Of a stretch of 35,448 bases of DNA, positions 4,815-31,154 are shown one piece after another. Position 1 is the first letter of the stretch. Each line of letters starts with the position of its first letter. Where the stretch lies: positions 1 through 35,448 of the IMG/VR virus record IMGVR_UViG_3300025890_000062. The stretch is one strand, 5' to 3'. Source of the DNA: a virus. A model generated the notes under the pieces. It was not told the origin of the DNA. It searched no databases and was given only the letters and a program-made list of their open reading frames with translations. A program made the position numbers and the translations under genes.

Positions 4815-7800
4815 ATGGCAATCGATAGAGTCAATATTCAAGATATCATCGCATCTCAGGTCCCTGCATATGTGAGAGATGATTTCCCGCTGCTTGTTGA
4901 GTTTTTAAAACAGTATTATCTTTCAGTAGAGTTTAAAAGTGGGACATATGATCTTATTACAAATATTGATAAGTACGTCAAGGTAGATGAACTTTATGCA
5001 TTAGTAGATTCTACTATCCTTCAATCGGATATTAATTCAGTTGATACTTCTATCGGTGCTGATATTAATGGAAATTTCACAGAAGGATTTCCGAAAAGAA
5101 ATGGATTACTTTTAATTGATGATGAAATCATTTCTTACACCCATAAGACAGACACCTCGTTTGAGGGGTGTGTACGGGGTTTCAGTGGAGTTACAAGTTA
5201 CTCTGGGACAAATACCCCAGATGAACTAGTATTTAAAGAAACCTTAGCAGCAAGCCATACTAAAGACACCGTAGTTTATAATTTAAGTATTCGTTTTCTA
5301 AAAGAGTTTTTTAGAAAACTTAAAAACCAAGTCATTCCTGGATTTGAAGATAGAGCAACAGTTAGTGATCTCAATCAAAGAAACTTTATTTTTGGATCTA
5401 AATCTTTTTATGATTCAAAAGGCACAGATGATTCAATTGAGATTCTTTTCAGAGCATTGTATGGAAAAGACTCTTCAGTTATAAGGCCAAGTGAATATCT
5501 GTTTAAACCATCTGATGCAGATTATAGAGTTACCATTGATATGGTGGTTGAGAAGAATATTGGAGATCCTTTAGATTTAAAATCTCGTACACTATATCAG
5601 GACTCTACAAAAGCAAGAGGGTCTGTATGTAACGTAGAAAAATTAAATTGGGACTATGCTTCATTAGGTATCGATAAAGAAGCATTCAATATCAAAAGCG
5701 AATATTATCAAGTTTCTATTGACTATGGATATCAAAGAGATATTGATGTAACTGGAACAGTTTACAGCACATTTGAACCAGCAGCAAAGACACAACTAGT
5801 AAACACTGCAGGTATTGGTGCTACTATTATTGATGTTGACTCCACGGTAAGTTTTGGTAGTACTGGAGAAATTATTCTGAAGGATAATGATTATAACGAT
5901 GTAGTTGTTCAATATACTTCAAAATCAATCAACCAATTTATCGGAATAACAACCTTAACCACTGAAATACCAAATACCTCTAATGTAACACAAAATGATT
6001 TTGCTTATAGTTATAAAGGAATAGATGATATTATAAATGTCCGTATCACTGGTTCTCTTAAAGATTTTAATGTCTTTGATGATACTTTTTCTCTAAATTC
6101 TGACGATACTATTGGTGTTAAAACACTAGGTTATCCTTCATCTAGTTTTAAAGAGAACAATTGGTTTTTCAATATAAAAACAGACTGGAATGTTAAAGAA
6201 CTTATTCTTGTAGATGCAAGTGAATCTACTTACAAAGTAGAATTATATTCCAATCATTATTTTTATAATGGATATAAGGTAAGACTTATTGGTTCAAATG
6301 GAATTGTACGAGAGGGTTATGTTACGTCAATCAATACCAATAAAGGATTTACAGTTAAGTTATCCTCAACCATACCAGCATCGGAACTTTCACTCAGATA
6401 TAGTCTAAAAAATATTATTCAGAAAGGACTGTCTAATAACTATCCAATCATTCAAAAATATTATTCTAATATTCAAAACGTATATACTAAGTTTAATGGA
6501 GACCTGCTAATTGCTAGCAATTCTATTCCATCATATCTTGAGACCGTTTTAAATCCATATAACAAAGAAATCACTTTCTCAGGCAGTGCAACTGGATTGG
6601 GAGTATTGAAACTGCAGTCAGCAGGAGATCATGGATTATATACTGGAGATACAGTTTTCTATAAAGGTAGTATAACAGAAACGATCACCAATACTCCAGA
6701 TGGTAATCAATTTATTACTAAAACTAAAAGTCAATTCTCTAACTTAGATGAGTTAGTTTATTTTGTCAAGAGAGTTAGTGCTACACAAATTCAACTTTCT
6801 AGGAGTAAGTCTGATTTATTTTCTAACAAATATATTATACCTATAGGTTCTGTAGAAAACAATAAAATTATATTATACAGCAACTACGGTAAGCAACTTT
6901 TACCCCAACATATTGTACGTCAAGTACTGCCCCCAGATAATAAATCAGGCACATTTTTCACTCAACCAGGACCTACCGGCATCCTGGTTAATGGAGTTGA
7001 AATTCTTAACTTTAAATCTCCTAAAAGTGTATACCATGGTAAAATCAATAACTTTGAGGTTATTGATAAGGGATATGGTTATGATGTAATTACCCCGCCA
7101 GCATTATTAGTTACAGACACTAAAGGATCTGGTGTTGTTGGTGATGTTTCCGTTCATGGATCTTTAGAAAGAATTGATATAATTGATACTGGATATGATT
7201 ATATTGATACACCAATAATTGAAATCAAAGGTGGAGGAGGACAAGATGCTGCTGCTAAAGTTAATGTATCGTCTGTTTCCCACATAGTTACTTTCAATGC
7301 TGGTGCTGGAAGTAGTAATGTCAATACATCTAATAACACTATAGGTTTCTCGACCTTTCACAAGTTTAGAGATTTTGAGAAGTTAGTATACAAAACTGGA
7401 GGATCAAACACAATTTTAGGATTGTCCACTAACTCAGTATACTATGCAAATGTAGTTGATGCATATACAGTTAAACTTCACAATACTTTGTCTGAATCTA
7501 AATCAGGCATTAATACCGTAACGATACTTTCAAAAGGAAAAGATACACAATCTCTAGAAACATTAGAAAGAAAAAGAATAGTAACTGATATTGTAGTAAC
7601 AAATTCTGGATTTGGGTATAAGAATCAAAAGCGAACGATACCTTCTACTGGAATTAATACTGCTACTAATAACTTTATAATTCCAAGTCATGGGTACATG
7701 GAAGGTGATATTATTAGATATACACCAGGATCAACCCCAGTGAGCGGCATTTCTTCTAATACTGATTATTATGTAACTAAAGTAGATGATAATAAGTTTC

Positions 7801-10800
7801 TACTATCGGGTATAGGAACAGGAAGTATTACTAAAGACTATTATTATAATAATAACATATACAATAATATTACTTCTATTGGAAATGGGTCATTTAACTA
7901 TGAACCAATCTCAGTTACTATTAAGGGAACTATTGGCGTTAATACATTAACAAATCAAGATTTTAACTGTAAAATCCAACCTGTTTTTAGAGGAAATATT
8001 GATTCTATTGATACTACTTCTGGAGGAGTTGGATATGGTGCATCTACTACGATTAATTTCAATAGACAACCTAATATTAGTTTAGTCAGTGGTTCTGAAG
8101 CACAGTTGTTCCCTGTTGTTTCTAATGGTCAAATTATTGATGTTATTGTTCAGTCAGGTGGGTCTGGATATAACTCACCTCCAGATTTGGTTTTATCTGG
8201 ATCTGGAGATTACGCTAAACTCACTCCCGTTATTGTTGATGGAAAAATTACAGAAGTAAAAATTATAAATGGTGGAGCAGGATATGTTCAAGGTGATATA
8301 CTATTAACAATAGTTAAATCTGGAAATGATTGTACAATTAAAGCAATTATCCAACAATGGATAATTGATATTTTTGCTAATGATTTTAATAATATAAAAA
8401 GTGATGATGGATTCGTAGTAAAAAATGCAAGAGATAACTCTCTTCAGTATACTCATGTGTATGCACCAAGAAAACTGAGAGAATCTGTATATTCAGTTGA
8501 TTCTAATGGAAATAAAATTTATGGAAATACAGATTTAATTTTAAACAATGGCATTGAGATTGAATCTATAGATCATTCTCCAATTATTGGTTGGGCATAT
8601 GATGGAAATCCAATTTATGGACCATATGGATATACAAATGCGTTTGGAGGAACAGTAACAAGAATCAAATCTTCATATGAACTAATAACACAACAATCTC
8701 AAAGACCTCCTTTGTCTTCATTCAGTGAAGGATTTTTTGTTGAAGATTATCAGTTCACTGGTTCTGGCGACTTAGATGAGCACAATGGAAGGATATGTGT
8801 TACTCCAGAATATCCAAATGGAACTTATGCCTATTTTGCCACAATAAATGCAAATATCGATAATTCTGGTCCTTTTGATAATTTCAAAAGACCTGCATTC
8901 CCATACATTATTGGACTAACTTTCAAATCAAAACCAAACTCTTTTAACTTCTTAAAGTCATCTAATCAATCCGATTATGATCTCAAATCAAATAACTGGT
9001 TAAGGAATACAACTCCATACAAGTTAAATGATCAAAATAGTTCTTATAGTTATATTTTAAATTCAAGTAAAGATAAACCTCAAGAAATTAATATTACCGC
9101 AGCAAAAACTGGAAATGTAGAATCGATTGGAATAAGCACTGGTGGAGATAATTATAAAGTAAATGATAAAATCACTTTTGATGCTGTAAAGTTTGGTAAA
9201 AATGCTCGTGCTTCTGTTGATAGAATATCTGGTAGAAAAGTCAATACTGTAAGTGTTGCCACAACTCAAATTAGTGAAGTTGAGTTTGTCCCTCAAACTT
9301 CTAAAAACCAATTCTTAGGCGTATCTTCTACACCTCATGGATTTAATGATAAGGATATTGTTAATGTTAATGGACTTTCACGTTACTTTGATAGATTAGA
9401 TGGCAACTTTACTATTGGAGTTACTACTTCTAGACTTTCTTTATCACAAGAAGTAGGACTTCAAGGATCTACAGGCATTCACACGTATATTTCCGTATCT
9501 GGAAATTTGAGTTATCCTACCGTTATGGTGGATGATATATTCAAGATAGGAACAGAAAAAGTTAAAGTTCTTAAAATTGAACCCGGTAGATTGCGAGTAG
9601 AGAGAGCAGTCAACAATACAGTTGCTATTGCACATACGGTATCCAGTTTAATTGAAGATGACTCAAGAAGATTTGCTATTAAAGTTGGTTTGGCTAAAAC
9701 TACTCAAACATTAACACTTAATAAGAAGATTTATTTTGAACCTTCAGAATCTGTTGGTGTCGGAACAGTGGGTATTGGTAATACTTTATCAATTGTAAAT
9801 CCTGGAGCAGGTATCACTCAGATATTTGTAGAACCAAGAAACATTTATCTTCCAAATCATGGTCTAAAGATAAATGAAATAATTAAATATAATCCAAATG
9901 ATGGAACATCCATTCAAGTGTGGAGTGGATTGGTAGGAGTAGCATATACTAACCTGTCTTCATATGATAAGTTGTACGCAGTTCCACTTAATAATAGGTA
10001 TGTTGGAATTAGTTCAAATAAAGTAGGATTAGGTTCAACTGGAACATATGTTGGTGTAAACACCTCTACTAGTCTTTTATATTTTACAGGAATAGGAACT
10101 GGAACCAATCATAGTTTCCATACCGATAAAGTCAATGTTGTGAAGGGTAATGTATCTAAAAACATAGTTACAGTGTCTACAGCAGGCACTCATGGTCTTG
10201 CATATAAGAATAAGATATTCTTTGATCTTAGACCTACTAATCAGATTGATGTTGTTGTTAAGTATGATGATTACAATAGAAGAATTGTATTTAATCCAAC
10301 AAACTTCATTGCTGCTGATATGGATGTTGACGAGAACTCAATCAAATTCTCTAGGATGCCATTTAAAACTGGGGATAAAGTAATATATACTGCTTCCTCT
10401 CCAGCAAGTGGACTTACAGATAATGGAATGTATTATGTTTACATCTATACCACTAATAAGATTAAACTTGTAAGTGAAAAAACCGAACTTAAAACTCTTA
10501 ATCCTAAATTTGTAGACATAACTTCATCTTCTGACGGAACTCTATCTAGAATCAATCCATTTGTAGAGGTGAGTAGAAATAATACTTTAAAATTTGATCT
10601 TTCAGACTCTTCACTTTCATTCATATCAAATGGAGTATCATACTCTGCTTTCGTTATGAAGATTTTTACAGATCTGCAACTTAATAAAAGATTTCTTACC
10701 TCAGGAAATAGTGATCAATTTGAGGTAACAACTAATGGGAAAATGGGTATTGATTCAAATGCCAATCTCTCAATCCGTTTCACTAACGAAGTTCCTTCAG

Positions 10801-13800
10801 TTCTTTGGTATAACTTTGAACCAACCCAAAAATCAATCATTACAACCAGTAAAAGTAAAATTGTAGTAGATAGAGATGCTTATGCTTTTAGTGAGATAAA
10901 TGTTGTAAAAACAAAATTAGATGGTCCAAAAGATATTGCAAGTATTGGGTCTACCACCTTTACATTTAATATTGCGTCATCACCAAATATTATATCATTT
11001 GGATCAACCAATTGTAATGCAATCTATGAGACAACATCAAAAACCGCTCAAGGTGCGATATCAAAAGTTAAAATTTTAGATCCCGGTTCTGGATACAAAA
11101 CTATTCCATCCATATCTTCTATTAGGAGTGGATTTGGAACCGGAGCATACTTGGAACCAGATAGTAATAATATTGGAAAACTCCTAAAATCTGAGTTTAA
11201 TTCAACCAACATTGGTTATGATTTTCCTACAGACCCAACTCTAAGAGTTCTGGCAGGAGTTCCTGAAGTTATTAAACTTTCTCCTCTCTCATCTTTCCAA
11301 TCAATCGGTATCACATCTTCAGGAGTAAATTATCTTGTATCTCCCGATTTAATTGTTATTGATGGAGTTACTAATAAAGTTGTTGATGTAGATCTTCAAT
11401 ATAACTTGGGAGATACAGAGGTAAAAATTCTTAAGAACACTGCCTCTTTATATGATGTCCCTCCTACTATTATTCCCACCAATAACTCAAACGGATTTAG
11501 CATATCATCTATCACATATAGTTCTTCAACAAAAATTGTAAGACTCTTTCTTCCTCATCAGTTCTCTGGAGGAGACTTCCCATTTGAAGTTGGTAAGTCC
11601 ATATTAGTTGAAAATATAAGTGTTGGTTCTACCGGTTCAGGATTCAACTCAAAAGATTACAACTATACACTATTCCCAGTATCTGGTGTCAACACTGCTG
11701 CAGGCGGATCTGGAGCATGGGTGGAATATAATCTAAATGAATACGTCGGAACTGGATATCCAGGCAACTATAGTAAAAACTCCTTAGGTAGGGTTATTCC
11801 TAAGGTCAATTTTCCAATCTTTAATACTCAGATTAGAAAAAATAATTTCTTCAAAGGAGAAAGATTTGAAGGTCCTTCATATAAGGGAAGAGTTGATAGT
11901 TACAATGACAATATTGAGATTCTCAAAGCAAAGATAAATGGAGTTGCACGACCTGGTGATATTGTTAAAGGAGCAACTTCTGGTGCTGAGGGTAGTATCG
12001 AATCTATCTCAATATTTGATGCAGAAATCACCATAGGAACTGGTACAACAATTACTAGAGGGTGGCAAAAGAATACCGGATTTTTAAACGATAATCTTCA
12101 AAGACTTCCCGATAATGAGTACTATCAGAATCTTTCATATTCAATTAGTTCTGAAATTGATTTTGATACTTGGAGTGATCCAGTAAATTCGCTAGTACAT
12201 ACCTCTGGATTTAAAAAATATGCAGATCTACAAATCCTTAGTGGAGAAATAGATAATGATCTTAAACTGACGGTTTCAACTCCAGATTCTAATATTGAAA
12301 CTATAGTTGACATCACTAGTTCTGCGGATCTAAATTGTTACTATGATTTTGATAGTGCAATTGAAAGAACTAAGAGATTGGGCAATGTTGATGTATCTGA
12401 TGAAATCGTATTTGATACTATATTTCTTTCTGATTATTTCCAGTCAGTAGGAAATAGAGTTCTGAGTATAGATGATCTTAGTCCTCAATTTAATAGTAAC
12501 GAAAGAACAACTCCTTTTGAGGTTATTTCAGTATTTGGAAATGATTTTAAGTACAATAAACTTATTACTCATGTAAGAGATAGAATTTTTACAGATGAGA
12601 GGCAGTTTGCAATTGTTTCTTGTCTTCAGGATAACAATATAGGTTACATTAATCAGTTTGCATCTATCGAATCATATCCAAATCTTGGATATTACGATTA
12701 TGGTTCAGGAACTGATGGTTGGAGATTATTATTCTATCCTACAAAGTTTGAATTTAATACTTATGACGTTTCAACCACAAACTTTGCTATTTTGACCGGA
12801 GTGTCCACTGAGGGTTCTAAAGGTTTCGGTGACGTTGCTTTTACAAAATCAAAAATCACTAACGTTCCAGCATCGACTAATACTGATATTATTTCTATTG
12901 GAGCAACATATAGATCAGCAAAAGTTATGGCTAACTTTGAAGCATCTGACAACAAAATGTTTGCTTCTGAGTTAAATTTAGTCCACGACGGAACTGATGT
13001 ATATCAACTTGAACTTGGTTCAATTGATGAAAATGAAGGGTTAACTGGAGTTGGTTTTGGAACTTTTGATGCCAGACTTTCTGGTGGAAATATTATTGTT
13101 AAGTTCTTCCCGAATGTTGCACTCGCTATGACCTGTGTCGCGAGTATAATTGCTATTTCTGATGCAGGGACTACAACATCTAATACATTGTTGGATGTTA
13201 CTAGAGTTGGTTCTAGTTACTCTACTATTGCCTCTTCTGGGTCTCCTACTGCTAATGTAGTGGCATCTTATGAAGATCCTTCAGAGTCAGCTTACTACTT
13301 TATGAGTATTGAAGACAATACAAACAATAAGTATGAAATTCTTGAGTTTGCAGCACTAAACTCCAGCACAAATGATGTATATGTTGAATGGGGCAATATT
13401 AATACTGGAGGCACGATTGGAACAGTAGGTGTTGCCGCATCAACTAGTGGACTTCAGATTGTATATACTCCCGAACCTAATATAAACGTCGATGTTAGGA
13501 CTTATTTTACAGAGATGAGAATATATGATGATAATACTAGAATTGACGAAATTGATATGTTTAGCACTGTCATCAAAACTGATCATAAAGATTATGAAGG
13601 CACTAAACTAGATCTTAAGACTAAATTTGATCTAAAACACGATGGACTTGATATTTTTAGAAGAGTGTTTAACGGTTCATCAGCAGCAACTGTTGATGTG
13701 TCCAATAATAAGGTAATTATTCCAAATCATTATTTTGTAGGTGGGGAATCGATTGAGTATTCACATCCTGGCACAGGCACAACAATGGCAATCGTCATTG

Positions 13801-16862: not shown

Positions 16863-16880
16863 TAAATACTTGAAATATAA

Positions 16881-16888: not shown

Positions 16889-16906
16889 ACAAAAAGTTCT
16901 CTAAAA

Positions 16907-18481: not shown

Positions 18482-18487
18482 AGAATT

Positions 18488-21400: not shown

Positions 21401-24400
21401 AGAGTTTATTTCTCAAATGCTTATTACGCTAGTTCTGATACTGGAGATGTTACTACTGTTGATTCTTACAATTCTTTTGATTACTCCACTGAAATTCCAT
21501 CCGTTGGAAACAGTAGAGTTACAGATATTATTGATGGAAGACCTAGAGTTACAAACTACGCTGTAACACCTGGATCAAGATCACCACTTGAATTCTTTGG
21601 TAGAAACTTCAACGGTGGTCAGCATAGTTCAAAAAACGTTATTGCATCGGATGAATCTATTACTTTAGGATATAACTATTATCTTGCTAGGGCAGATAGA
21701 ATTTATATTGATAAAAATGGATCATTCTCAGTTAAGAATGGTGCTCCAGATGATATTCCCCAACTTCCTTTATCTGTAACAGATGGGATGAATGTTGGTA
21801 ATGTATTTTTACCTCCATATCTTTATAATACAAATGACGCAAAAGTAACATTTATTGACCATAAGAGATATCAAATGGTTGATATCTCTAAAATTGAACA
21901 AAGAGTTAAAAATCTTGAATATTATAGCTCATTGAATTTGCTTGAGCAATCAACTCTGAATACATTTGTTCCAGATATTAATGGACTTAATAGATTTAAG
22001 TCTGGAATTTTTGTAGATAACTTCAGCTCTACACTTCCGCAAGATCTTACAATTGGAATTAAAAACTCTATTGATACAAAGAGAAAAATTCTTAGACCAC
22101 CTCACTACTCTAATGCTGTAAATCTTCAAGTTGGAATTGGTAATACTTTATTAGGTGCCGGAGTACGAAGAACAGGTAATATTGTTACTCTTGATTATGC
22201 TAATAATGTCTGGTTGGAACAACCATTTGCTACAAGACTTGAAAATGTTACTCCATTCCTAATTAATTTCTATCAAGGCAATATAGATTTAGAACCATCT
22301 GTTGATGTTTGGATTGATACAAACACAATGCAGATACGCGATGTTCTTATGGAAGGATCTTTCCAAGGACTTGCTGATGTGATTGGCGCAGAAGTTGAAA
22401 CTGCTGAAGATGGTTCAAGAATTGGCGTTGCTCCTATTGTTTGGGACTCTTGGGAAACTGTTGGTGCTCAACTTGATCTAAGTGCAACAAATAGAAATGA
22501 GTCACTCGCTCAATCTGCTCAAAGGAATGGGACTAGTGCTGGCGCAATTCTTGCCGGACAAGGAATTGGTGCTGGAAGAATTGATACTGGAAGAACTACA
22601 GTTCAAAGTACAGTTATCAATGGATCTGTTTCACTTGAGCAAACAAGAACTGGTTCACAACAGTCTATCCAAGAAGTAATTAATACTGAAAGTCTTGGTG
22701 ATAGAGTCGTAAACAGAGAGATCACTCATACAATGAGATCTCGTAATATTAAGTTCACTGCTAAGGCAATGAAACCATTTACACAAGTATATTCTTACTT
22801 TGACGGTGTAGCAATAAGTAGATTTACAGTCCCTAAACTCATAGAAGTCACAATGACTTCAGGTACGTTTACTGTAGGGGAAACTATTAATGGTACAATG
22901 CCAGGTAGCGTTACTACTCAACAAATAGGTAGTTCTTCTCTACCTGAGATTGTTTTCAGAGCAGCAGCTGCAAATCATAAGTATGGAAGTATCACTGAAC
23001 CTTCTGACATTTATGATAGCAATCCATACACCAGAGCAACTAGTTTACCAACTGCATATACTGGCGCATCTACTATTATAAATGTTGATACTGATAGTCT
23101 GCAGTCCGAAGAGTTCTCACAGTTCTTTGGATACATTCAATCAGGAATGGTTTTAAGAGGACGTACAAGTGGTGCAGAAGCGACTATAACCTCTGTTAGA
23201 CTCATCACAGACCGAGTTGGTACTTTGATTGGTTCTTACCGTGTTCCTGACCCATCTAGCGTCTCTAATCCAACTTTCGACACCGGAAGGTCAGAGTTTA
23301 GACTAACAAGTAGTTCAATTAACAGTAGAGTTAAAGGAGCACTTTCTACTAGTGCTCAAGAAATATTCTATTCTCAAGGAGATCTTGATAATACTCAAGA
23401 AGTAACTCTTTCGTTGAGAAATGCTAGAGTTGCAACTAATGATGATATTCAACCAGAAACAAGACAATTAGTCGGTGAGTCCACAGAAGTTAATATTATA
23501 CAAGATATTAACGTTGTTAGAATACCACCTCCCCCACCACCACCAGCACCACCACGTCCACCATGGCGTGGAGATCCTCTTGCTCAAACATTCTTTGTTG
23601 ATGATCTTACTGGCATATATCTTTCCAAGATTGATTTATTCTTCCAATCTAAGGCAACAGATTTCCCTGTAACTATTCAGATTCGTGAGACTAGACTTGG
23701 TACTCCAACTAATATCGTTCTCCCATTCTCTGAGGTAACTTTAGATCCAAAATTTGTTGAGATATCTGAAGATGGTTCTGTTCCAACTACATTTACTTTT
23801 AACTCTCCAGTATATTTGAACGGCAATACAGAATATGCAATAGTTGTTAAGGCAGATGTTACTGATTACAACGTATGGATTTCACGATTTGGCGAAGCAG
23901 ATATAACAACTGCTGCCCAAGAAGCAGGACAGATTCTTGTTACTCAGCAACCTCTCTTGGGTTCTTTGTTCAAATCTCAGAATGCTTCAGTATGGACACC
24001 AAGTCAGTATGAAGACCTTAAATTTGTTCTTTATCGCTGCCAGTTCGTATCTCAAGGTGTTGTTCAGTTCTTTAATCCAGAACTTCCTCAGCAACTTGAA
24101 AAAATCACTAGGAATGGTATTTCGATTACTCCTAGAACAATTAGCGTTGGAATCGGAACAACTGTTAATAATACAGGAGTTGTTGCTGGGAGGGAATTAT
24201 CTATTGGAGATATAATCACTCAAACTTCATCTAACTTTAGAGGAGTATTAGTAGGTCTTGCTGGTTCCTCAACTGGAAATCTTGGACTTTCTAATCCAGG
24301 AATAGGATATACTCCTGCAGCATCTCAGTTTACTCATACTGGGATTGCGTTAACAGCGTTTACTGGTCAAGGTGTAAATGCAACTGCTAACATTACAATC

Positions 24401-26053
24401 AACAATGGAGTTGCTATTGCTGCGACTATCAATACGGGCGGCAGTGGATACAATGTTGGTGATGTTCTGACACCATTAACCACTGGTAGTAATGCTTTCT
24501 TGCCAGGAAGAGACATGAAATTGTCTGTTAATACATTGCTTGGATTTAATGAACTTGAACTCAGTAAAGTTCAAGGCGAAGTTAAGTTTACTGCAAATAA
24601 CTACTTACAATATACTACATCTGCAGGAATCACCTCAGATGTGAATGTAGGTGTAGGTGGAAGTTTGGTTCCTGACGCACCAGTTACTGTAAGGAATGAT
24701 GGACTTCATTTGAAAGTGTTCCAGAGAAATCATGGAATGTATTCAAATACCAATAGAGTTCTTCTCAAGGAAGTTGGTTCCGATATTACTCCAACAGCAC
24801 TTTCTGCTCAATATACTAAGGCAGATACAGGTGCCATTTCTGTTGGATCAACCGCTAACTTAGCAGATTTTGAAGGTCTTCCTATTAGTGTTAACAATCC
24901 TGGATATGTGAAGATTGGTAGTGAGATTATATCATACACTGGAACTGCTGGTAATTCTTTGGTAGGAATTTCAAGTAGGTCAGTTGATAATACTATTGCT
25001 GCTACTCATAATATAAATGAACTGGTCTACAGATATGAATTTGGTGGCGTTTCTTTGCTAAGAATCAATAAAGAACATCAATTTGCAGATGTGACTGTTG
25101 ATGATGCTATTGGACTTGATCACTATAACATCAAGGTCAATATGTCTGCTGATGGAACGGATAGAAGTTCTACTTCTCCTACTTTAGGTTCTCGATATTT
25201 TGTTACTAGTAAAACTGGTGGAGGAACTAAAGTTAAAGGAACATATAATCTTCCTTATTCAATCGTTATTCCTAAACTGAGAACAGTTTCACCTAATGGA
25301 ACTTCTATTAGTTCTCAGATGAGAACTGTCACTGAAACATCCGTTAGTGGAACTGAAATCTCCTTCCTGGATAAGGGATATCAAGAAGTTTCTCTTAATG
25401 AGAAGAATTACTTTGACAATCAAAGAATGGTTGTTTCTTCAACTAATGAAAGAAGTTATCTTAACGGTCTCCCATATAATAAGTCAATGACTTTGAATAC
25501 TAATATGTTAACCGTTGATAATAGATTATCTCCTGCTATTGATCTTGATCATGCCGCTGTTGTGTTTGTTTCCAATAGAGCAAATCAACCTATCACAAAC
25601 TATGCTACAGACAGCAAAGCAAAGGGAATCTTAGGTGACCCAACTAGTTTGATGTATGTGACTAGAAATATTAGTTTGGAGAATCCAGCATCTTCCTTGA
25701 GAATATTCATTGATGGATATGTTTCAACGTTCAATGACATCAGAATGTTCTATGCTCTTGATCAGGATCTTCCTGCCACAGAATGTGTATTTACTCCTTT
25801 CCCTGGTATTAATAATCAGAGTGAATTTGGAACGGTTCTTCAACCATTCAATGCTGATGGAAAACCAGATGTATATGTCCCACCATCGGATGTTTACACT
25901 CAGTATCCATCATTGAATTACTTTAAAGAGTATAAGTTTACTATTGATAATCTAACTCCCTTTAATATGTTTAGGATCAAAATAATAGGAACATCTACCA
26001 ATCAAGCAATTGTTCCTCAGTTTAGAAATCTTAGATGTGTTGCGGTAGTTTGA
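18488..26053 (+). CDS. Giant DUF4815-type baseplate or tail structural protein
   Basis: This 2521-residue protein begins MPQETNLNVAPYFDDFDPRS, typical of the DUF4815 family of phage structural proteins (Pfam PF16075, from recall), with 'PVQARELNNLQSILQNQIE' near residue 35. Near 1125-1165 comes a helical block (YQMVDISKIEQRVKNLEYYS) found in the same family, and near 1410-1445 the block MRSRNIKFTAKAMKPFTQVY that leads to YFDG. A poly-proline hinge with seven consecutive Pro (about 1680-1693, ending WRGDPLAQTFFVDD) divides the chain. Beyond it lie beta-rich modules, including GxGY near 1935 and 1980 and an IGSEIISYT...H block near 2140. The C-terminal ~180 residues (FNDIRMFYALDQDLP...FRIKIIG...LRCVAVV) look like a jelly-roll-type domain. 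It takes the place of T4 gp9-gp12, so it may be the outer wedge and fibre-attachment component (inference). It has no signal peptide. Confidence 0.8.
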   Translation: MPQETNLNVAPYFDDFDPRSNYYKVLFKPAYPVQARELNNLQSILQNQIESVGNNLYKEGSVVIPGNLNYNDLFYGVQIQQEFLGVPVQIYLDQLLGKKITGQSSGITAEVVTYVTDSESQNGNFTLYVNYLESSTDNSTETFFDNEVLTVNEGISYATTFISAGEGFANTIVEDASQTGSAFVVSEGVFFIRGNFVTVQSQLLILDQYGTQPSYRIGLLINEELISSDIDPQLTDNAQGFNNYTAPGADRLKISCTLVKKDSDDFNDENFVQLAEVQRGLLRTKIDDTKYNLLGDELAKRTFEESGNYYINEFVTSVKESLNNQEGNRGVYEPGQITVGGNVPSDDLLVYKVSPGKAYVKGYEVDIRSPSLIDVRKPRDTRLLENQAVNFAFGPTIEVNNVSGSPIIGFDTSTTVSLRDQRVGSSSTAAAGAEIGLARIYDFALESGSYNTTTPQVNIWDLSLFDVQTYTTLDVNVITTLSSPVHLQGEQSGASAFLRYNVSAGTALTAYSQQGDFVFGERLSFNGVLDTSRFVTGVKKHSIADVKSVYSIVGTANTFNADTIQRNIISIGIGSISARDNAGISTISAPELAAGGFIGVVTTGNLIKYTIADNADPTILRVTGINGKTATVTGVTTVTGICEGSPPTSATNLTNISVVASRLQSSQGTGNLSSNDSIYSVLPKENIESVDLSGSNIVIRNNTSINIDANGLSQVVSVGDPAKEVFLAFDEERYSLLRSDGGTEILTADKFIFSQGNTQLQLQGLSSADPDATLITSTRKSNITSKTKLKNSTNNIIINKSKNSASGVGTATLQDGLTYGNYPFGTRVQDNIISLNVPDVIDVYGIFQSGTTEDPESPNLAVANMNGPSATTNDLILGETFSGGTSGAKARYIQRKNDTTISFVYLNDIVFEVGEPLSFSQSTVSGNASNIELGSQNVTRDYYLARGQRSSFYDFSRIIRKENVPEAASKLRVYFSNAYYASSDTGDVTTVDSYNSFDYSTEIPSVGNSRVTDIIDGRPRVTNYAVTPGSRSPLEFFGRNFNGGQHSSKNVIASDESITLGYNYYLARADRIYIDKNGSFSVKNGAPDDIPQLPLSVTDGMNVGNVFLPPYLYNTNDAKVTFIDHKRYQMVDISKIEQRVKNLEYYSSLNLLEQSTLNTFVPDINGLNRFKSGIFVDNFSSTLPQDLTIGIKNSIDTKRKILRPPHYSNAVNLQVGIGNTLLGAGVRRTGNIVTLDYANNVWLEQPFATRLENVTPFLINFYQGNIDLEPSVDVWIDTNTMQIRDVLMEGSFQGLADVIGAEVETAEDGSRIGVAPIVWDSWETVGAQLDLSATNRNESLAQSAQRNGTSAGAILAGQGIGAGRIDTGRTTVQSTVINGSVSLEQTRTGSQQSIQEVINTESLGDRVVNREITHTMRSRNIKFTAKAMKPFTQVYSYFDGVAISRFTVPKLIEVTMTSGTFTVGETINGTMPGSVTTQQIGSSSLPEIVFRAAAANHKYGSITEPSDIYDSNPYTRATSLPTAYTGASTIINVDTDSLQSEEFSQFFGYIQSGMVLRGRTSGAEATITSVRLITDRVGTLIGSYRVPDPSSVSNPTFDTGRSEFRLTSSSINSRVKGALSTSAQEIFYSQGDLDNTQEVTLSLRNARVATNDDIQPETRQLVGESTEVNIIQDINVVRIPPPPPPPAPPRPPWRGDPLAQTFFVDDLTGIYLSKIDLFFQSKATDFPVTIQIRETRLGTPTNIVLPFSEVTLDPKFVEISEDGSVPTTFTFNSPVYLNGNTEYAIVVKADVTDYNVWISRFGEADITTAAQEAGQILVTQQPLLGSLFKSQNASVWTPSQYEDLKFVLYRCQFVSQGVVQFFNPELPQQLEKITRNGISITPRTISVGIGTTVNNTGVVAGRELSIGDIITQTSSNFRGVLVGLAGSSTGNLGLSNPGIGYTPAASQFTHTGIALTAFTGQGVNATANITINNGVAIAATINTGGSGYNVGDVLTPLTTGSNAFLPGRDMKLSVNTLLGFNELELSKVQGEVKFTANNYLQYTTSAGITSDVNVGVGGSLVPDAPVTVRNDGLHLKVFQRNHGMYSNTNRVLLKEVGSDITPTALSAQYTKADTGAISVGSTANLADFEGLPISVNNPGYVKIGSEIISYTGTAGNSLVGISSRSVDNTIAATHNINELVYRYEFGGVSLLRINKEHQFADVTVDDAIGLDHYNIKVNMSADGTDRSSTSPTLGSRYFVTSKTGGGTKVKGTYNLPYSIVIPKLRTVSPNGTSISSQMRTVTETSVSGTEISFLDKGYQEVSLNEKNYFDNQRMVVSSTNERSYLNGLPYNKSMTLNTNMLTVDNRLSPAIDLDHAAVVFVSNRANQPITNYATDSKAKGILGDPTSLMYVTRNISLENPASSLRIFIDGYVSTFNDIRMFYALDQDLPATECVFTPFPGINNQSEFGTVLQPFNADGKPDVYVPPSDVYTQYPSLNYFKEYKFTIDNLTPFNMFRIKIIGTSTNQAIVPQFRNLRCVAVV
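23521..23565 (+). other. Poly-proline hinge in the DUF4815 protein
   Basis: Codons near residues 1679-1693 give a run of seven consecutive Pro, then APPRPPW. In phage fibres such runs form stiff linkers between a shaft and a distal domain. Just after it comes DPLAQTFFVDDLTG, the start of a new beta domain. Confidence 0.75.
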
Positions 26054-26054
26054 T

Positions 26055-26279
26055 ATGGCATTAGTACCAATTGAAGGAAAGGATGGTTTTTTTAGAGATA
26101 ACACTACCGGTGCTATTGTGAATCGAAATAAAACTGATTATGAAAACTATATAAATGCAAGAAATAGACTCTCTTCTGAAAAGGAGAGAGTTGATAATCT
26201 TGAACAAAAAGTGGATAATTTACAAAATGATCTAAGTGATATCAAAACTCTTCTCCAAGTAATAGCAAATGGCAAATAA
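26055..26279 (+). CDS. Small coiled-coil protein (74 aa)
   Basis: The product is 74 residues. Residues 1-30 (MALVPIEGKDGFFRDNTTGA...) look like a small beta hairpin, and residues 38-70 form a heptad coiled coil (SSEKERVDNLEQKVDNLQND..., hydrophobics at L, V, L, V, L, L, I). Such short N-terminal-head coiled coils often act as trimeric or dimeric connectors in virions. The start codon lies one base after the stop of the giant DUF4815 gene and its own end overlaps the next gene by 11 bases, so it is certainly translated within the same late unit. T4 counterparts by position would be gp11, gp12 or wac (fibritin); there is no sequence resemblance that I can assert. The function is unknown. Confidence 0.78.
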   Translation: MALVPIEGKDGFFRDNTTGAIVNRNKTDYENYINARNRLSSEKERVDNLEQKVDNLQNDLSDIKTLLQVIANGK

Positions 26280-26652
26280 TACAATTACCTTTGATCCTTC
26301 AGTAAGAACTCCTTATGGGGTAAACCTTACAATGTATACTGGTGTTGATTTTGAAGAGACATTTAAGATTTTGAATAATGATAGGTCAAACTATAATTTG
26401 ACTTCCCATACGATGCATTCAAGAATGATGAAATCCACTGGTCAAGCAGCATCAATGGATGTGGTGGCAAACTTTACAGAATCAATTACAAGTGCTAGTG
26501 CGGGAGAATTTAAGATTACGCTATCTGACACTCTTAATAGACAAATAAAAGGTGGAAGATATGAGTATGATATCTTTGCTTCTATAGGAAGTAGCACTTA
26601 TAGCATTGCCAGAGGTAATATCAATGTGTATTCTGGAATTTCTACGGTCTAA
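26269..26652 (+). CDS. Beta-sandwich virion protein (127 aa)
   Basis: This 127-residue protein overlaps the coiled-coil gene by 11 bases (ATG 26269 within its end). The pattern fits a small Ig-like sandwich used in several phage tail and head proteins: GVDFEETFKI near residue 25, a variable 'NLTSHTMHSRM' strand, then AGEFKITLSDTLNRQIKGGRYEYDI and a closing STYSIARGNINVYSGIS. In that family the 'ITLS...T..L..G.Y.YDI......G...V' sequence precedes a closing strand. It lies between the baseplate block and gp13, so it is likely a structural decoration or a part of the wedge/neck. I cannot name a T4 counterpart. There is no signal peptide. Confidence 0.75.
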   Translation: MANNTITFDPSVRTPYGVNLTMYTGVDFEETFKILNNDRSNYNLTSHTMHSRMMKSTGQAASMDVVANFTESITSASAGEFKITLSDTLNRQIKGGRYEYDIFASIGSSTYSIARGNINVYSGISTV

Positions 26653-26659
26653 CTAAATA
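26653..26659 (+). promoter_or_regulatory. Late promoter motif before gp13
   Basis: CTAAATA lies 24 bases before the gp13 ATG and begins right after the stop of the preceding gene. It matches the motif before gp25. It would start the neck and terminase unit. Confidence 0.6.
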
Positions 26660-26683
26660 ATAAAAAAGAACTGTCTTATAATA

Positions 26684-27556
26684 ATGGCAAAACCGTCAAC
26701 TAGGCAAGAATTAATTGATTATTGTTTAAGACAACTGGGTGCTCCGGTTGTTGAGATTAATGTTGCTGAGGAGCAACTGCAGGATTTAGTTGATGATGCT
26801 GTTCAGTTTTTCCAAGAAAGACACTTTGATGGGGTAAGTCAAACATATTTAAAGTATCAAGTAACTGACGCAGATGTTAATAGAGGAAAGGCTAGACCTC
26901 CAGGAGCACCTGCAGGCGATGGTGGAACATCAGGAATAACTAGTATTACAGCAACTGCAAATATTGCTGGATCTAATACTACATTTGCATATTACGAAAA
27001 TAGCAATTATATAGCAATTCCTCCATCAATTATTGGAATCAATAAAGTATTTCAATATAATGAAGGGTTATCTTCTGGAATGTTTAACATCAAATATCAG
27101 TTGATGTTAAGTGATATAGCGGGACTTCAAGGGTCAGGAGCAACGGGATATGACCTTACCTCCTACTCAATGACTATGAGTTATTTGGAAACAATAAACT
27201 TTTTACTTAATACTCATAAGCAAATTAGATTCAATCAAAGACAAGATAGAATGTATCTTGACGTAGATTGGTCGGAATTAAAAGCAGGAGAGTTTCTAGT
27301 TTTAGATTGCTGGTCAGTATTGGATGGTAACGATTATTCACGAGTTTGGAATGATTCATTCATAAAACCATATCTAACATCTCTTATCAAAAGACAATGG
27401 GGTCAAAATCTGATGAAGTTCCAGGGTGTAAAACTTCCTGGAGGCATTGAGTTCAATGGTAGACAAATATTTGATGACGGACAAAGAGAAATCGATGAGA
27501 TTAAGCAAAAAATGATGAGTACATATGAACTTCCACCGTTAGACTTGATCGGTTGA
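26684..27556 (+). CDS. gp13: gp13, neck (head completion) protein
   Basis: The 290-residue product is close to T4 gp13 (309). In T4, gp13 and gp14 form the neck ring that joins the filled head to the tail. The N-terminal block TRQELIDYCLRQLGAPVVEI, followed by EEQLQDLVDDAVQFFQERHF, is the conserved start of cyanophage gp13, and 'NFLLNTHKQIRFNQRQDRMYLDVDWSE' near residue 170 is a second conserved region. The insertion PGAPAGDGGTSGITSITATA near residue 70 looks like a flexible loop with low-complexity composition. The protein is soluble with no membrane segment. It starts a late unit from the CTAAATA at 26653 and is followed four bases later by gp14. Confidence 0.93.
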   Translation: MAKPSTRQELIDYCLRQLGAPVVEINVAEEQLQDLVDDAVQFFQERHFDGVSQTYLKYQVTDADVNRGKARPPGAPAGDGGTSGITSITATANIAGSNTTFAYYENSNYIAIPPSIIGINKVFQYNEGLSSGMFNIKYQLMLSDIAGLQGSGATGYDLTSYSMTMSYLETINFLLNTHKQIRFNQRQDRMYLDVDWSELKAGEFLVLDCWSVLDGNDYSRVWNDSFIKPYLTSLIKRQWGQNLMKFQGVKLPGGIEFNGRQIFDDGQREIDEIKQKMMSTYELPPLDLIG

Positions 27557-27560
27557 TGCT

Positions 27561-30107
27561 ATGCTTAATCCATTTTTTCAAAACGGAACTAAGGGAGAAC
27601 AAGGATTAATCCAAAGTCTCGTCAACGAACAGTTAAAAATGTATGGTATTGAGGTATATTATATGCCTCGCAAATATCTTACAAAGTTTACTGTAATTAA
27701 AGAAGTCATACAATCTGAGTTTGATAATGCATATCCTATTGAGGCATATGTAGATAACTATGATGGTTATGGCGGAGAAGGCACTATATTGTCACGATTC
27801 GGCATTCAAGAGAAAGATGATTTAACTCTGGTTGTGTCTAGAGAAAGGTTTGAAGACTATATTACTCCTTTAATTAAAAATCTTCCTAATGTTGAACTAG
27901 CAACTAGACCAAAAGAAGGAGATTTAATCTATTTTCCATTGGGAGAGAGATTATTTGAAATCAAGTATGTAGAACACGAACAACCGTTTTATCAACTACA
28001 GAAGAACTATGTTTACACACTGAGATGTGAACTCTTCAGATATGAAGATGAAGTTATTGATACTGGAATCGAAGATATTGACGAAGAAATTGAACAGATT
28101 GGTCATATCAAGACTCTTAGACTTATTGCTGTAGGAGTCAGTACACAAGCAACCGCAACCTCAAATTTGTGCATAACTGGTTCTGTTGGATCTGTTGTAA
28201 TTACAAATATGGGTAGAGGGTATACAGAACTACCCAGAGTTGCTTTCTCTTCCGCACCAGGAGGAACAACAGCAGTTGGCATAGCATCACTTACTTATGA
28301 TTATATTGGGTGTGACGGAACATCAGGAAAAATAGTTTCAGTAAATGTAACAAATGCTGGATGTGGGTATACTGTAGCACCTATTATTACATTCCACGGA
28401 GGAGGTCTTTCTGGTGCTGGAGCTGCTGCTACTAGTATTCTTGTTCCAACAGGTTCTGTACAAACAGTATCAATAGCAAATAGCGGAGGAGGATATATTA
28501 CAGCACCAATTGTTGGAATATCAACTCCAAAACATGTTGGTGCCGCAGCAACTGCTATTCTTAATACTGCGTCAGAAGTGGGAGCAGGAGTCAGTGTAGT
28601 AAAGGCACCTATTAGTATTGGTGCATCTGCATATCTGTTCCCATATGGAACTACGGGAGGTGTTTATTATAAACAGGCACCTACGGTGACTTTTGGTGCT
28701 CCAACAGGAGGCGGTAATGCTGGACTTGCTTCTGCTATTATGGATCCAATCGCATTAGCAGGCGGCACAGTCAAAAAAGTTGCTATAACCACAGAAGGTA
28801 AATTCTACACAAGCGCACCGGATATTGTTATTGCTCATCCAGGAACAAGTCCAGCAGTTGCTACCATTGATAATGGCGGAGGAGTTGATGGATCTAGTAT
28901 TGATGAAACTTCTGTTGCATTTACTACAACAGGTCGAGCATATTCAACAGCACCAACAGTTTCAATTGGACTTGGAACAGGAACTGCAACCCCGTCTCAA
29001 GTAGCAGTTGGTATTGCTACTATTCATCCGATCTTAGGAATTGTCACAGCAGTTGGATTCAATACAGAAACTAAATTATGGTGTGTCGGAACTGGAGCAA
29101 CTATTGGGGCAGGATATACAGTACAACCAACGATTAGTTTTTCAAATCCTCAACCGATTACAGCAACAGCAACTGCTACTGTTTCTATTGCTGGTACTAT
29201 TAGTGCCATATCTATTGGTAGTAGTGGATTTGGATATGTTTCTACTCCAGATGTCGCAGTTGCTGGTCCTGGTGGTATAGGTACTCAATTTATTGCTACA
29301 GGAATTTCTACAATAAGATTTGATTCTATTATAACTTCTGGAACAATAGGTATAGGTTCAACAGTTATTACAGGAATCAATACCACTAATATGGTAGTTG
29401 GTGACCGTGTAAGACTGCAGACTGGATATGATAGTCCATATGAAAGAGTTTATATTATACCAAAAGATACTTTTGTAACGAGCATTGGATCTTCAATTCT
29501 TGTTGTGAATAATTCCACTGTTGGTCTTGCTACAACAACTCAAAATGTTGAAGTAGGCATACAAAATTGTGGAATAGTAACAGGTATAACTGTAACATTT
29601 GGTGGAGGTGGATATACTTCTCCTCCTGTTGTTACAATTTCAAATGATACCTCAGAGAAAAACTATTACACAGAAGTAAATGGAGTTGTAAAAGCAACAG
29701 GCATTGCTACTATCAGTTCTGCAGGATTCGTTACTTCCATCTATATTTCAAATGGTGGAGCAAAATATGTTATAGCGCCAGATGTTACATTACCAAAACC
29801 AGTCGCTGGAATAGTTACATCAAGTGGATCATTTGTGTATAATGAAATCGTTACAGGTGGAACTAGTGGTACTACAGCCAGAGTTAAAGAGTATGATGCA
29901 GTTGCTAATACTCTTGAGATTTCAATAGTCAGTGGAGACTTCAAGGCAGGCGAAACGATCACTGGTTCAGAATCTTCTGCGGTTGGTGTTATCAGAACGG
30001 TAGGTATTTACGACGAGGTTACTCCATTCGCAGATAATGATAATATTCAAAGAGAAGCAAGTCTAGTTATTGATTTTAGTGAGAATAATCCTTTTGGAAT
30101 GCCTTAG
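27561..30107 (+). CDS. gp14: gp14, neck protein with a large internal repeat insertion
   Basis: The protein has 848 residues, while T4 gp14 has 256. Residues 1-185 (MLNPFFQNGTKGEQGLIQSL... to FEIKYVEHEQPFYQLQKNYV and CELFRYEDEVIDTG) match the main domain of gp14. The last ~50 residues end with NIQREASLVIDFSENNPFGM, the gp14 C-terminal motif. Between them lie ~600 residues of extra sequence with at least ten GxGY...P repeats (near 214, 264, 307, 365, 411, 456, 515, 554, 680 and 732) and a GExIxGxxSGA module near 760-812. The two ends together total about the T4 length, so the middle is an insertion. gp14 forms the neck ring with gp13. The insertion could project as whiskers or contact host or tail (inference). 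It follows gp13 by four bases; the gp15 late promoter comes after it. Confidence 0.92.
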   Translation: MLNPFFQNGTKGEQGLIQSLVNEQLKMYGIEVYYMPRKYLTKFTVIKEVIQSEFDNAYPIEAYVDNYDGYGGEGTILSRFGIQEKDDLTLVVSRERFEDYITPLIKNLPNVELATRPKEGDLIYFPLGERLFEIKYVEHEQPFYQLQKNYVYTLRCELFRYEDEVIDTGIEDIDEEIEQIGHIKTLRLIAVGVSTQATATSNLCITGSVGSVVITNMGRGYTELPRVAFSSAPGGTTAVGIASLTYDYIGCDGTSGKIVSVNVTNAGCGYTVAPIITFHGGGLSGAGAAATSILVPTGSVQTVSIANSGGGYITAPIVGISTPKHVGAAATAILNTASEVGAGVSVVKAPISIGASAYLFPYGTTGGVYYKQAPTVTFGAPTGGGNAGLASAIMDPIALAGGTVKKVAITTEGKFYTSAPDIVIAHPGTSPAVATIDNGGGVDGSSIDETSVAFTTTGRAYSTAPTVSIGLGTGTATPSQVAVGIATIHPILGIVTAVGFNTETKLWCVGTGATIGAGYTVQPTISFSNPQPITATATATVSIAGTISAISIGSSGFGYVSTPDVAVAGPGGIGTQFIATGISTIRFDSIITSGTIGIGSTVITGINTTNMVVGDRVRLQTGYDSPYERVYIIPKDTFVTSIGSSILVVNNSTVGLATTTQNVEVGIQNCGIVTGITVTFGGGGYTSPPVVTISNDTSEKNYYTEVNGVVKATGIATISSAGFVTSIYISNGGAKYVIAPDVTLPKPVAGIVTSSGSFVYNEIVTGGTSGTTARVKEYDAVANTLEISIVSGDFKAGETITGSESSAVGVIRTVGIYDEVTPFADNDNIQREASLVIDFSENNPFGMP
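28200..29800 (+). repeat. GxGY...P protein-repeat region of gp14
   Basis: Codons 214-745 of gp14 contain ten copies of a degenerate unit. It has the form N-x-G-x-G-Y-T-x-x-P-x-V-x-(I/F)-x-x, for example MGRGYTELPRVAF, AGCGYTVAPIITF, SGGGYITAPIVGI and GGGGYTSPPVVTI. Copies are 40-130 residues apart, and the intervening segments are rich in Ala, Gly, Ser and Thr. No DNA-level identity is preserved, which points to old, protein-level selection. Confidence 0.85.
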
Positions 30108-30117
30108 ACATAAAACT

Positions 30118-30125
30118 GTTAAATA
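30118..30125 (+). promoter_or_regulatory. Late promoter motif before gp15
   Basis: GTTAAATA ends 21 bases before the gp15 ATG, in the 39-base gap after gp14. It is similar to the other late motifs here, although TTAAATA is weaker than TATAAATA. Confidence 0.5.
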
Positions 30126-30146
30126 GAAGTATATTCTTTAAAGATC

Positions 30147-31154
30147 ATGTTTGAGTATTTCTACAACGAAATTCTAAGATCTACAATCATTTCATTTGGT
30201 TCTCTGTTTAACGGTATCGAGATTAAACACAAAGACGGAAATGATGAGACTTGGAGTGTCGTCAAAGTTCCTCTTGCTTATGGACCTACACAAAAGTTCT
30301 TAGCAAGATTAGAACAGACTCCAGATTTGAATACTCCTGTTCAAATGACATTGCCTAGAATGTCTTTTGAGTTTATTGATTTGACTTATGATCCCGAAAG
30401 AAAAGTATCAAAATCTCAAACGTTTGTTATAACTGGTGATAACGGAGAGCAAACTAAAAAAGCATATATGCCAGTACCATATAATATGGTTTTTGAATTG
30501 TCTGTAATGACGAAACTAAATGATGATATGCTGCAAATAACTGAGCAGATTTTACCCTATTTTACTCCTGCGTACACCATACCGGTTAAACTTCTTAGTG
30601 GATTAACAGAAGTAGTTAATACTCCAGTTGTGCTTGATAATGTATCAATGGAAGATGATTATGAAGGCAACTTTGATACAAGAAGAGCATTAGTTTATAC
30701 TTTTAGATTTACAGCAAAGACCTATCTTTACGGACCACTTACAGATATTAGTTCTTCTATTGTTGAAAAAGTTTCTGTTGGATATATTGCAGGAACAAGA
30801 ACAAAAGGAAAAACTCAGTACGAAAGAGATGTTACTTACACTGTAGAACCAAGAGCACTAAAAGATTACAATGGAAGTGAAGTTGCTCAGTTAACAGCAA
30901 ACATTGATTTTGAAGACACCGTGATTGAAGTTTCAGATGGTACTAAGTTTACCAAGAAAACATATATCTACATGGGCGAAGAGCAAATGTACGTTGACAA
31001 TATAATTGATAATAAGTTAACAGTTAGAAGAGCACAAGATAAGACTACGATTCAGCAGCACGTTTTAGGTTCTGCTATCTATAATATCACTAAAGCAGAT
31101 GCTTCATTCATTGAAGTTGGAGATAACTTTGGATTTGATGGAGGATTTAGTTAA
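30147..31154 (+). CDS. gp15: gp15, tail sheath stabilizer / tail completion protein
   Basis: The 335-residue product corresponds to T4 gp15 (272). The start MFEYFYNEILRSTIISFGSL, with 'GIEIKHK', matches T4 'MFGYFYNSSFRRYATLMGDLFSNIQIKRQ', and VKVPLAYGPTQKFLARLEQT, then LPRMSFEFIDLTYDPE and MPVPYNMVFELSVMTK, follow the family. gp15 caps the top of the tail and binds the neck and sheath. The C-terminal ~85 residues (from about 249) are extra relative to T4. They form a block DTVIEVSDGTKFTKKTYIYM followed by GEEQMY, RRAQDKTTIQQHVLGSAIYN, the same IGxExxxV...H module seen in the baseplate giants. The next gene, gp16, begins eight bases after the stop. Confidence 0.93.
   Translation: MFEYFYNEILRSTIISFGSLFNGIEIKHKDGNDETWSVVKVPLAYGPTQKFLARLEQTPDLNTPVQMTLPRMSFEFIDLTYDPERKVSKSQTFVITGDNGEQTKKAYMPVPYNMVFELSVMTKLNDDMLQITEQILPYFTPAYTIPVKLLSGLTEVVNTPVVLDNVSMEDDYEGNFDTRRALVYTFRFTAKTYLYGPLTDISSSIVEKVSVGYIAGTRTKGKTQYERDVTYTVEPRALKDYNGSEVAQLTANIDFEDTVIEVSDGTKFTKKTYIYMGEEQMYVDNIIDNKLTVRRAQDKTTIQQHVLGSAIYNITKADASFIEVGDNFGFDGGFS

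Follow-up and report, generated by a model that had tools for sequence, protein, structure and literature searches.

A 35.4-kb IMG/VR virus record carrying the tail genes of a marine T4-like phage (IMGVR_UViG_3300025890_000062; 35,448 nucleotides, here called the window) encodes a neck protein, gp14, into which a tandem array of ten units of a short GxGY repeat is inserted. We propose that this array forms length-variable neck arms for surface contact and that the unit is an exchangeable module in virion proteins of the Kyanoviridae, a reading to which we assign a probability of about one half. The repeat, its insertion point, the variation in its length, one replacement of the array as a cassette, and one foreign domain within it were observed directly; from these, we infer the exposure of the array, its hexameric arrangement, and its adhesive role. 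The same unit occurs in three further proteins of the window, namely, a gp7-like protein, gp8, and a structural protein with a DUF4815 domain.

The repeat was detected with a hidden Markov model (HMM) that was seeded with 11 visually chosen units and then refined iteratively on the proteins of the window, all counts being taken from the last iteration; since the profile was trained on the very proteins scored, the window scores are not independent. Units of at least 10 bits number 14 in the gp7-like protein and 10 in gp14, and 21 of these 24 score at least 19 bits. Two units were found in gp8 (12.4 and 8.1 bits), and one was found in the DUF4815 protein when the window is taken alone (4.7 bits). 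Among 300 shuffled proteins the best score was 7.7 bits with the last profile (10.1 bits with the seed profile), and the units of the gp7-like protein, gp14, and gp8 all exceed every shuffle with the last profile, the second gp8 unit marginally. The repeat-bearing genes and their parts are as follows.

4815..16862, + strand: gp7-like baseplate wedge protein, 4015 aa, 14 detected GxGY units (phrog_2885, E = 0; HMM)
7029..7283, + strand: gp7-like units, aa 739-784 and 779-823 (36.2 and 42.5 bits)
7581..8048, + strand: gp7-like units, aa 923-937 and 1059-1078 (11.0 and 10.1 bits)
8118..8303, + strand: gp7-like units, aa 1102-1141 and 1140-1163 (36.0 and 20.9 bits)
9108..9218, + strand: gp7-like unit, aa 1432-1468 (32.4 bits)
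11049..11390, + strand: gp7-like units, aa 2079-2121 and 2162-2192 (34.0 and 22.6 bits), with two further degenerate units by eye
14712..15284, + strand: gp7-like aa 3300-3490, units at 3331, 3378, and 3441 (15.9, 36.7, and 20.0 bits), preceded by one more by eye; AlphaFold2 model
16062..16322, + strand: gp7-like units, aa 3750-3794 and 3795-3836 (35.8 and 29.3 bits)
16907..18481, + strand: gp8 baseplate wedge protein (PF09215, E = 3e-14; phrog_438)
17528..17710, + strand: gp8 unit pair, aa 208-224 and 254-268 (8.1 and 12.4 bits; family consensus, hhalign)
18488..26053, + strand: DUF4815 structural protein, 2521 aa (PF16075, E = 6e-57)
24269..24517, + strand: DUF4815 degenerate unit pair, aa ~1928-2010 (4.7 bits, below noise in the window; family consensus, hhalign)
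27561..30107, + strand: gp14 neck (head-closure) protein, 848 aa (PF11649, E = 1e-29; T4 gp14 chains, E = 4e-26)
27561..28100, + strand: gp14 core, aa 1-180, T4 gp14-like (PF11649 and T4 gp14 matches)
28170..29312, + strand: gp14 array units 1 to 8, at aa 204, 254, 296, 364, 401, 450, 514, and 542 (23.9 to 48.5 bits each)
29316..29564, + strand: barrel-like domain within the gp14 array, at the boundary of units 8 and 9, aa 586-668 (VIA, Z = 7.8 to 8eci_1)
29568..29837, + strand: gp14 units 9 and 10, aa 670-716 and 719-759 (35.1 and 34.7 bits)
29838..30104, + strand: gp14 C-terminal barrel and tail, final residues NPFGMP (S-SSM5 gp14 match)

By eye, the gp7-like protein holds 17 or 18 units, the HMM missing degenerate ones. 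These figures agree with an earlier note on this DNA, which had counted at least 13 units in the gp7-like protein, 10 in gp14, and two weak ones in gp8, and its concern that such a profile might hit random sequence equally well was answered by the shuffled proteins. The motif as that note wrote it, with N or D at its start and a P after the Y, is rare (two cases in the gp7-like protein and three in gp14), and the range given for the repeat, ending at position 31154, takes in gp15 (30147-31154), where the profile found no unit. The gp14-family profile consensus of the unit is GSVTSITITNAGSGYTTAPTVTISGPGGGGAAATAV, and over 15 units the two G residues and the Y are the only invariant ones. Ten other window proteins, including gp6, gp15, and a Gly/Ser/Thr-rich 1017-aa fiber-like open reading frame (ORF), contain no unit of at least 5 bits. 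Within the gp7-like protein, the unit at aa 923-937 seems, by eye, to be interrupted by another, inserted domain, and aa 1249-1347 (window 8559-8855) form a YHYH domain (PF14240, E = 2e-28).

For gp8 and the DUF4815 protein, the families were consulted in addition to the window. Two units can be read by eye in the family consensus of gp8 (76 unique rows of 87) as well as in that of DUF4815 (47 unique rows of 53). Profile-profile comparison by hhalign, using the 21 gp7-like and gp14 units of at least 19 bits, gave a probability of 83.6% (P = 8e-6) for the gp8 family, with 20.3% for its second unit, and 17.8% (P = 1.4e-3) for the DUF4815 family; in scans of the whole families, stretches outside the two unit regions reached at most 1.4%. 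The two units claimed earlier for the DUF4815 protein are thus backed by the family consensus and by hhalign, and the window alone gives a score below noise. In other phages, the unit scores 18.1 bits in gp8 of S-8S55, 10.9 in that of S-SSM5, 10.4 in that of P-TIM68, and 10.4 in the S-CAM7 protein at the DUF4815 position, while the PHROG profiles of gp8 and gp14 independently match the repeat region of the gp7-like protein. No credible match to the unit was found in Pfam or NCBIfam. Taken together, these results confirm that the GxGY repeat is real and that one family is common to the four proteins.

The gp14 gene sits between gp13 and gp15, and its product has a PF11649 core of which aa 2-171 match T4 gp14 (E = 4e-26). 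The array (aa 204-759) lies between this head-closure core and a C-terminal barrel. The insertion point is evident from the gp14 of phage S-SSM5 (308 aa), which has no detected unit; its core matches window aa 8-174, and after a short linker its residues 204-298 match window gp14 aa 755-846 (E = 8e-14). In S-SSM5, a 1982-aa YadA-domain protein encoded before gp13 has two GxGY units (L165:10300-16245). Two barrels in the window's gp14 resemble known structures, with the reservation that Z scores below 8 may merely reflect a common arrangement. The barrel within the array (model aa 586-673) best matches Arthrobacter phage Bridgette chain 8eci_1 (Z = 7.8, 69 residues, root mean square deviation [rmsd] 2.0), and the discontinuous C-terminal barrel (aa ~180 plus 760-822) matches a T4 baseplate chain of 1030 residues, by its length gp7, over residues 761-863 (Z = 6.5). 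The latter barrel also weakly matches the DUF4815 PHROG (E = 0.007) and a tail-fiber PHROG, suggesting that these proteins may share a second module. The earlier description of the repeat-bearing proteins as otherwise unrelated was therefore too strong.

To describe the length of the array, we used a gp14 set retrieved mainly with four gp14 queries, three of them with their best 80 loci each, so that the set is query steered and not a random sample; counts were restricted to unique complete gp14 sequences (246 of 301) and made automatically at 3 bits. They gave 0 units in 58 proteins, 2 in 1, 3 in 10, 4 in 141, 5 in 2, 6 in 3, 8 in 5, and 10 in 26. The 13 proteins scored as 2, 3, or 5 have four units by eye, which leaves copy numbers of 0, 4, 6, 8, or 10, figures that rest on few independent changes. 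Among cultured relatives, P-TIM68 and S-B43 have a gp14 with 4 units, and that of S-8S55 has more. An even copy number was considered as a general law and set aside, as it is true of gp14 after the reading of these 13 by eye and not of other proteins. Two alternating unit types were likewise not retained, because profiles of units 1 to 4 (from 139 four-unit gp14 proteins) did not split odd from even units elsewhere.

Two cases among close relatives show how the array changes. In the gp14 proteins of loci L036 and L038, which are 91 to 93% identical to the window over the rest of gp14, unit 4 is joined to unit 8 in register (alignment, by eye). Loci L035 (10 units) and L066 (4 units) share 97% identity across each flank and 98 to 99% over the first 150 gp14 residues, and after residue 150 the identity falls to 71 to 91% in windows up to the end of the gene. 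All nine close pairs that differ in length come from these two cases. The array as a general hot spot of divergence was not seen over 217 close pairs, which contained single events only.

A further kind of change was seen in locus L043, whose gp14 array contains a non-repeat domain of ~120 aa. Seven copies, at 62 to 83% identity to it, occur in gp7-like and other virion proteins. This mobile domain was confirmed in 18 loci at 52 to 99% identity to the query, often with Gly-rich linkers.

Mobile-domain loci: L043:4375-4758; L428-L434, L436-L452

According to the best reference match, its carriers are gp14 (1), gp7-like proteins (2), a protein encoded between gp7-like and gp8 (3), a P-TIM68 tail-fiber-like type (3), an S-B43 hypothetical type (5), another type (1), and unassigned ORFs (3). 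The domain has no notable match in Pfam, PHROG, or PDB, and a longer query gave no tblastn match in 50,697 phage records. Among 15 whole phage records, it was seen only, and weakly, in Melnitz-1 ORF 191 just after gp15 (L164:20837-21343, E = 2e-4).

The unit comprises ~40 residues and is modeled as a long strand, the GxGY loop, a short strand, and a further strand. This strand order is the same in the two AlphaFold2 models, so that the compact fold that had been expected for all four proteins is supported for gp14 and the gp7-like stretch aa 3300-3490. The gp7-like model (39 sequences, with 38 of 43 gp7-like relatives as input) reached a predicted local distance difference test (pLDDT) of 83 and a predicted template modeling score (pTM) of 0.71. 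In the gp14 model (32 sequences: of 75 gp14 loci, 55 were translated, and 31 of these plus the window were used), the array mostly has a pLDDT of 70 to 88 with dips to 41 to 52, at a pTM of 0.41. Searches of viral models with the gp7-like stretch retrieved cyanophage virion proteins, including the Bellamy wedge initiator (E = 6e-21) and, weakly, an S-RIM32 neck protein (E = 2e-3), and the gp14 model gave a similar list. In the PDB, two gp7-like units best matched the FN3/Ig-type chain 4bq8_A, a weak likeness whose Z lies among the values that common arrangements give (Z = 4.5, rmsd 3.5, 75 residues), and in a second structural look with the gp7-like model none of 1000 chains reached a Z of 5. 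No credible match to the unit came from PDB sequences, whether searched by profile or by consensus, a match to BurrH being the sum of weak matches to a different repeat, and Pfam Ig and fn3 did not match two array stretches at E values up to 5, a range in which HMMER filters drop most matches above 0.1.

Next, we asked how the repeat is distributed. With a profile of 15 window units (E value of 1e-3), 10 of 15 whole phage records matched: eight of the nine Kyanoviridae (not Melnitz-1), both Pootjesviridae (two matches each), and none of the four Straboviridae, namely, T4, Ah1, AB-Navy1, and QD01, a Vibrio phage from seawater. In S-B43 and S-SSM5 the unit is also present in proteins annotated as tail fiber-like, YadA-domain, structural, or hypothetical. 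Bacterial genomes were scanned with a typed two-unit consensus, a query that favors loci with two or more units, and at least 11 bacterial loci were confirmed; among the matches listed, 10 of 11 have units of at least 10 bits, exactly two of them in 6 of these 10. Pfam domains in the 10 bacterial proteins include multicopper oxidase, fn3, beta-helix, the S74 chaperone, bacterial Ig, and phage cement, and 4 of the 10 among the matches listed have no Pfam match. The presence of the repeat in bacterial proteins and the lack of a match in the four Straboviridae, the seawater phage included, mean that it tracks lineage and not the sea and that it is neither phage nor marine specific; the earlier note had described such repeats as common in marine phage proteins. 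In a tblastn search the consensus matched two phage records, one for a tail protein of Escherichia phage Alux-21 and the other unannotated, and no plasmid, and a search with the middle of the gp14 array (aa 329-673) found no phage record; we do not take this scarcity as absence, because BLAST filters such sequence.

Regarding the origin of the copies, the nearest neighbor of a unit lies within the same protein for 10 of 28 units, compared with 10.3 expected (P = 0.6). This accords with copies that do not cluster by protein, although the test is weak, as the units are short and gapped and one has no comparable columns. Compared with the four-unit gp14 of other phages, the window's gp14 has a first, a second, and a last unit whose highest scores are those against the profiles of units 1, 2, and 4, respectively. 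As these end units and the pairs in gp8 and DUF4815 are each kept across their own family, the spread is old and mainly inherited. The earlier suggestion of repeated domain capture within one genome is thus right in part, as to the single family in four proteins and the lack of clustering by protein; as worded it is not supported, the spread being older than one genome.

From these observations, the following picture can be drawn. The GxGY unit would be a small all-beta module, often present as a pair of ~90 residues, that can be exchanged in exposed insertions of large Kyanoviridae virion proteins; in the gp7-like protein, gp8, and the DUF4815 protein it would decorate the baseplate. In gp14 it would form the tandem array that separates the head-closure core from the C-terminal barrel and tail. 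Standing just before the tail that in T4 gp14 binds gp15, the array would leave the ring at its edge. Should gp14 be hexameric like its T4 counterpart, each virion would bear six arrays that stand out from the neck as arms. In-register gain or loss of units would alter the length of the arms, and the array could be replaced as a cassette or receive a foreign, recognition-like domain. Surface contact is their most likely role, be it weak adhesion to the host surface or the holding of fibers, and with it the arms would take over part of host recognition in phages whose interval between DUF4815 and gp13 is nearly empty.

A different role is conceivable. The units might be passive spacers or braces that add size or rigidity to the neck and baseplate or hold neighboring subunits together, with no host binding, which we regard as a real possibility that falls short of even odds. 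Invariance limited to G, G, and Y would suit such a part, as would the frequency of gp14 proteins without detected units (58 of 246 in the query-steered set), which indicates that the array is dispensable in some phages, and the bacterial units adjoin quite different domains (multicopper oxidase, beta-helix, and phage cement protein) in a spacer-like manner. However, cassette replacement in a near-identical genome and the acquisition of a foreign domain common to other virion proteins are both more usual for exposed recognition regions. Exposed, exchangeable, and length-variable arms thus fit surface contact somewhat better than passive spacing, although the two readings are not separable here.

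The proposed part in host recognition is drawn from the interval before gp13. In related pelagi- and cyanomyophages, a host recognition cluster lies between VrlC and gp14 (PMC7029224), and the S-SSM5 protein annotated as VrlC occupies the DUF4815 position of the window. No more than 629 nt separate DUF4815 from gp13 in 19 of the 20 informative loci with 10 units. Of 50 loci with 0 units, 48 show no DUF4815 within 900 nt (that is, the DUF4815 end profile missed it), and in the other 2 it lies 6.5 and 15.7 kb away; a YadA-type protein precedes gp13 in 49 of 57. Loci with too little flank were omitted from the interval count (7, 39, 0, 2, and 5 for 0, 4, 6, 8, and 10 units, respectively). A step further, such arms might stand in for the cluster where it is nearly absent; we offer this as a tentative extension and consider it rather unlikely.

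Several observations weigh against neck arms for surface contact with a part in host recognition. The loci with 4 units are mixed, as the DUF4815 end was found at 241 to 3034 nt in 29 of the 114 with enough flank and not in the other 85, and the association between interval and unit number is confounded by lineage, which alone may explain it. Over the 217 close pairs, mean identity was 0.961 for the array and C terminus, 0.967 for the core, and 0.973 and 0.976 for the flanks, a slight excess of divergence in the array and C terminus; a fall of over 0.08 was seen in just three pairs, of which two represent the L035 event, and a few flank windows between L035 and L066 also dip to 0.88 to 0.91. 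The mobile domain was found in the gp14 of one contig only. Other proteins often have unit clusters of 1 (51 to 69) and 3 (25 to 43), of about 215, depending on the threshold, and units tested for two alternating types gave no clear split. In the AlphaFold model of gp14 the core failed (pLDDT ~50 or less), and with the pTM of 0.41 and the dips within the array, the model does not fix the direction of the arms. Two units match an Ig/FN3-type fold weakly (Z = 4.5), and among the PDB chains matched by sequence none contains such an array. Finally, the arms are a proposal drawn from sequence and models.

That all copies bind one common ligand or partner protein, as the earlier note had considered, is improbable. 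A single repeat family in several neck and baseplate virion proteins and the common strand order of the two models would be expected of it. However, there is no conserved motif beyond G, G, and Y, which suggests a requirement of the fold rather than a shared binding site, nearest neighbors are no commoner within proteins than between them, and the unit is present in unrelated bacterial proteins; a common ligand thus finds no support. Convergence of Gly-rich low-complexity sequence, which short units rich in G, S, and T and the subnoise DUF4815 copies might bring to mind, is hardly credible given the distance between the shuffles (7.7 bits) and 21 of the 24 gp7-like and gp14 units, the lack of units in the Gly/Ser/Thr-rich fiber-like ORF, the separation by hhalign of the gp8 and DUF4815 unit regions from the rest of their families, and the shared strand order.

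The gene order of the window is gp25, gp6, the gp7-like gene, gp8, DUF4815, a 127-aa ORF, gp13, gp14, gp15, gp16, and the 1017-aa fiber-like ORF, and Kyanoviridae such as S-B43 and P-TIM68 are among the best named matches in the gp8 and gp14 searches. One further feature adjoins the neck genes.

26269..26652, + strand: 127-aa ORF, the sole ORF of at least 100 aa between DUF4815 and gp13 (phrog_3304, "L-shaped tail fiber protein assembly," E = 7e-10)

Upstream, ORF 1415-2119 matches phrog_3704, named ferredoxin (E = 8e-113), a name that looks doubtful, and ORF 382-1191 has a weaker match to a glycosyltransferase PHROG (E = 5e-7). A tRNA-Pyl called by ARAGORN at 34183-34279 lies inside the fiber-like ORF and was taken as a probable false positive.

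Ig-like and FN3 domains are, as a class, small beta modules on phage structural proteins. The GxGY unit resembles them in decorating many unrelated virion proteins and differs in being a 40-residue tandem unit with a GxGY loop that Pfam Ig and fn3 models do not match. In tail proteins, domain shuffling is an established phenomenon, and neck proteins are among the recently mosaic classes (PMC10684548); the accessible part of that study mentions neither the GxGY repeat nor an array in T4-like gp14, and titles and abstracts on the subject contain no description of either, which is no proof of absence. In related cyanophages, virions of S-CREM2 contain the stopper (gp14 type, ~347 aa) and wedge proteins (PMC10665884), and gp8 was among the targets of early selected mutations in S-PM2d chemostats (PMC9910659). 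What is new is gp14, the DNA gate of the head: if the proposal is true, an array of changing length in the gp14 of near-identical phages would make the neck a site of host contact or spacing. The gp14 array and the mobile domain most deserve further attention, and both the repeat family, which neither Pfam nor NCBIfam matches, and the mobile domain, for which Pfam, PHROG, and PDB show nothing notable, can be tracked across virion proteins.

Compared with the host recognition cluster (PMC7029224), the likeness is a variable region adjoining gp14; in the window, however, the interval holds only the 127-aa ORF and gp13, and the variable stretch lies within gp14 itself. T4 fibritin (wac), whose whiskers are neck appendages as the arms would be, is a coiled coil with its own gene (PMC3797505), whereas the array is all beta in the model and part of gp14; T4 has wac before gp13, where the window has the 127-aa ORF. 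T4 gp14 itself (PF11649, phrog_460) forms a hexameric ring with the gp13 dodecamer, with residues 178-256 as its binding site for gp15 once a tail is attached (PMC12270204, preprint). It shares with the window's gp14 the core and the gene order gp13-gp14-gp15-gp16, but it has 256 aa and the T4 record has no repeat match, whereas here an insertion of ~550 aa precedes the C-terminal barrel and tail.

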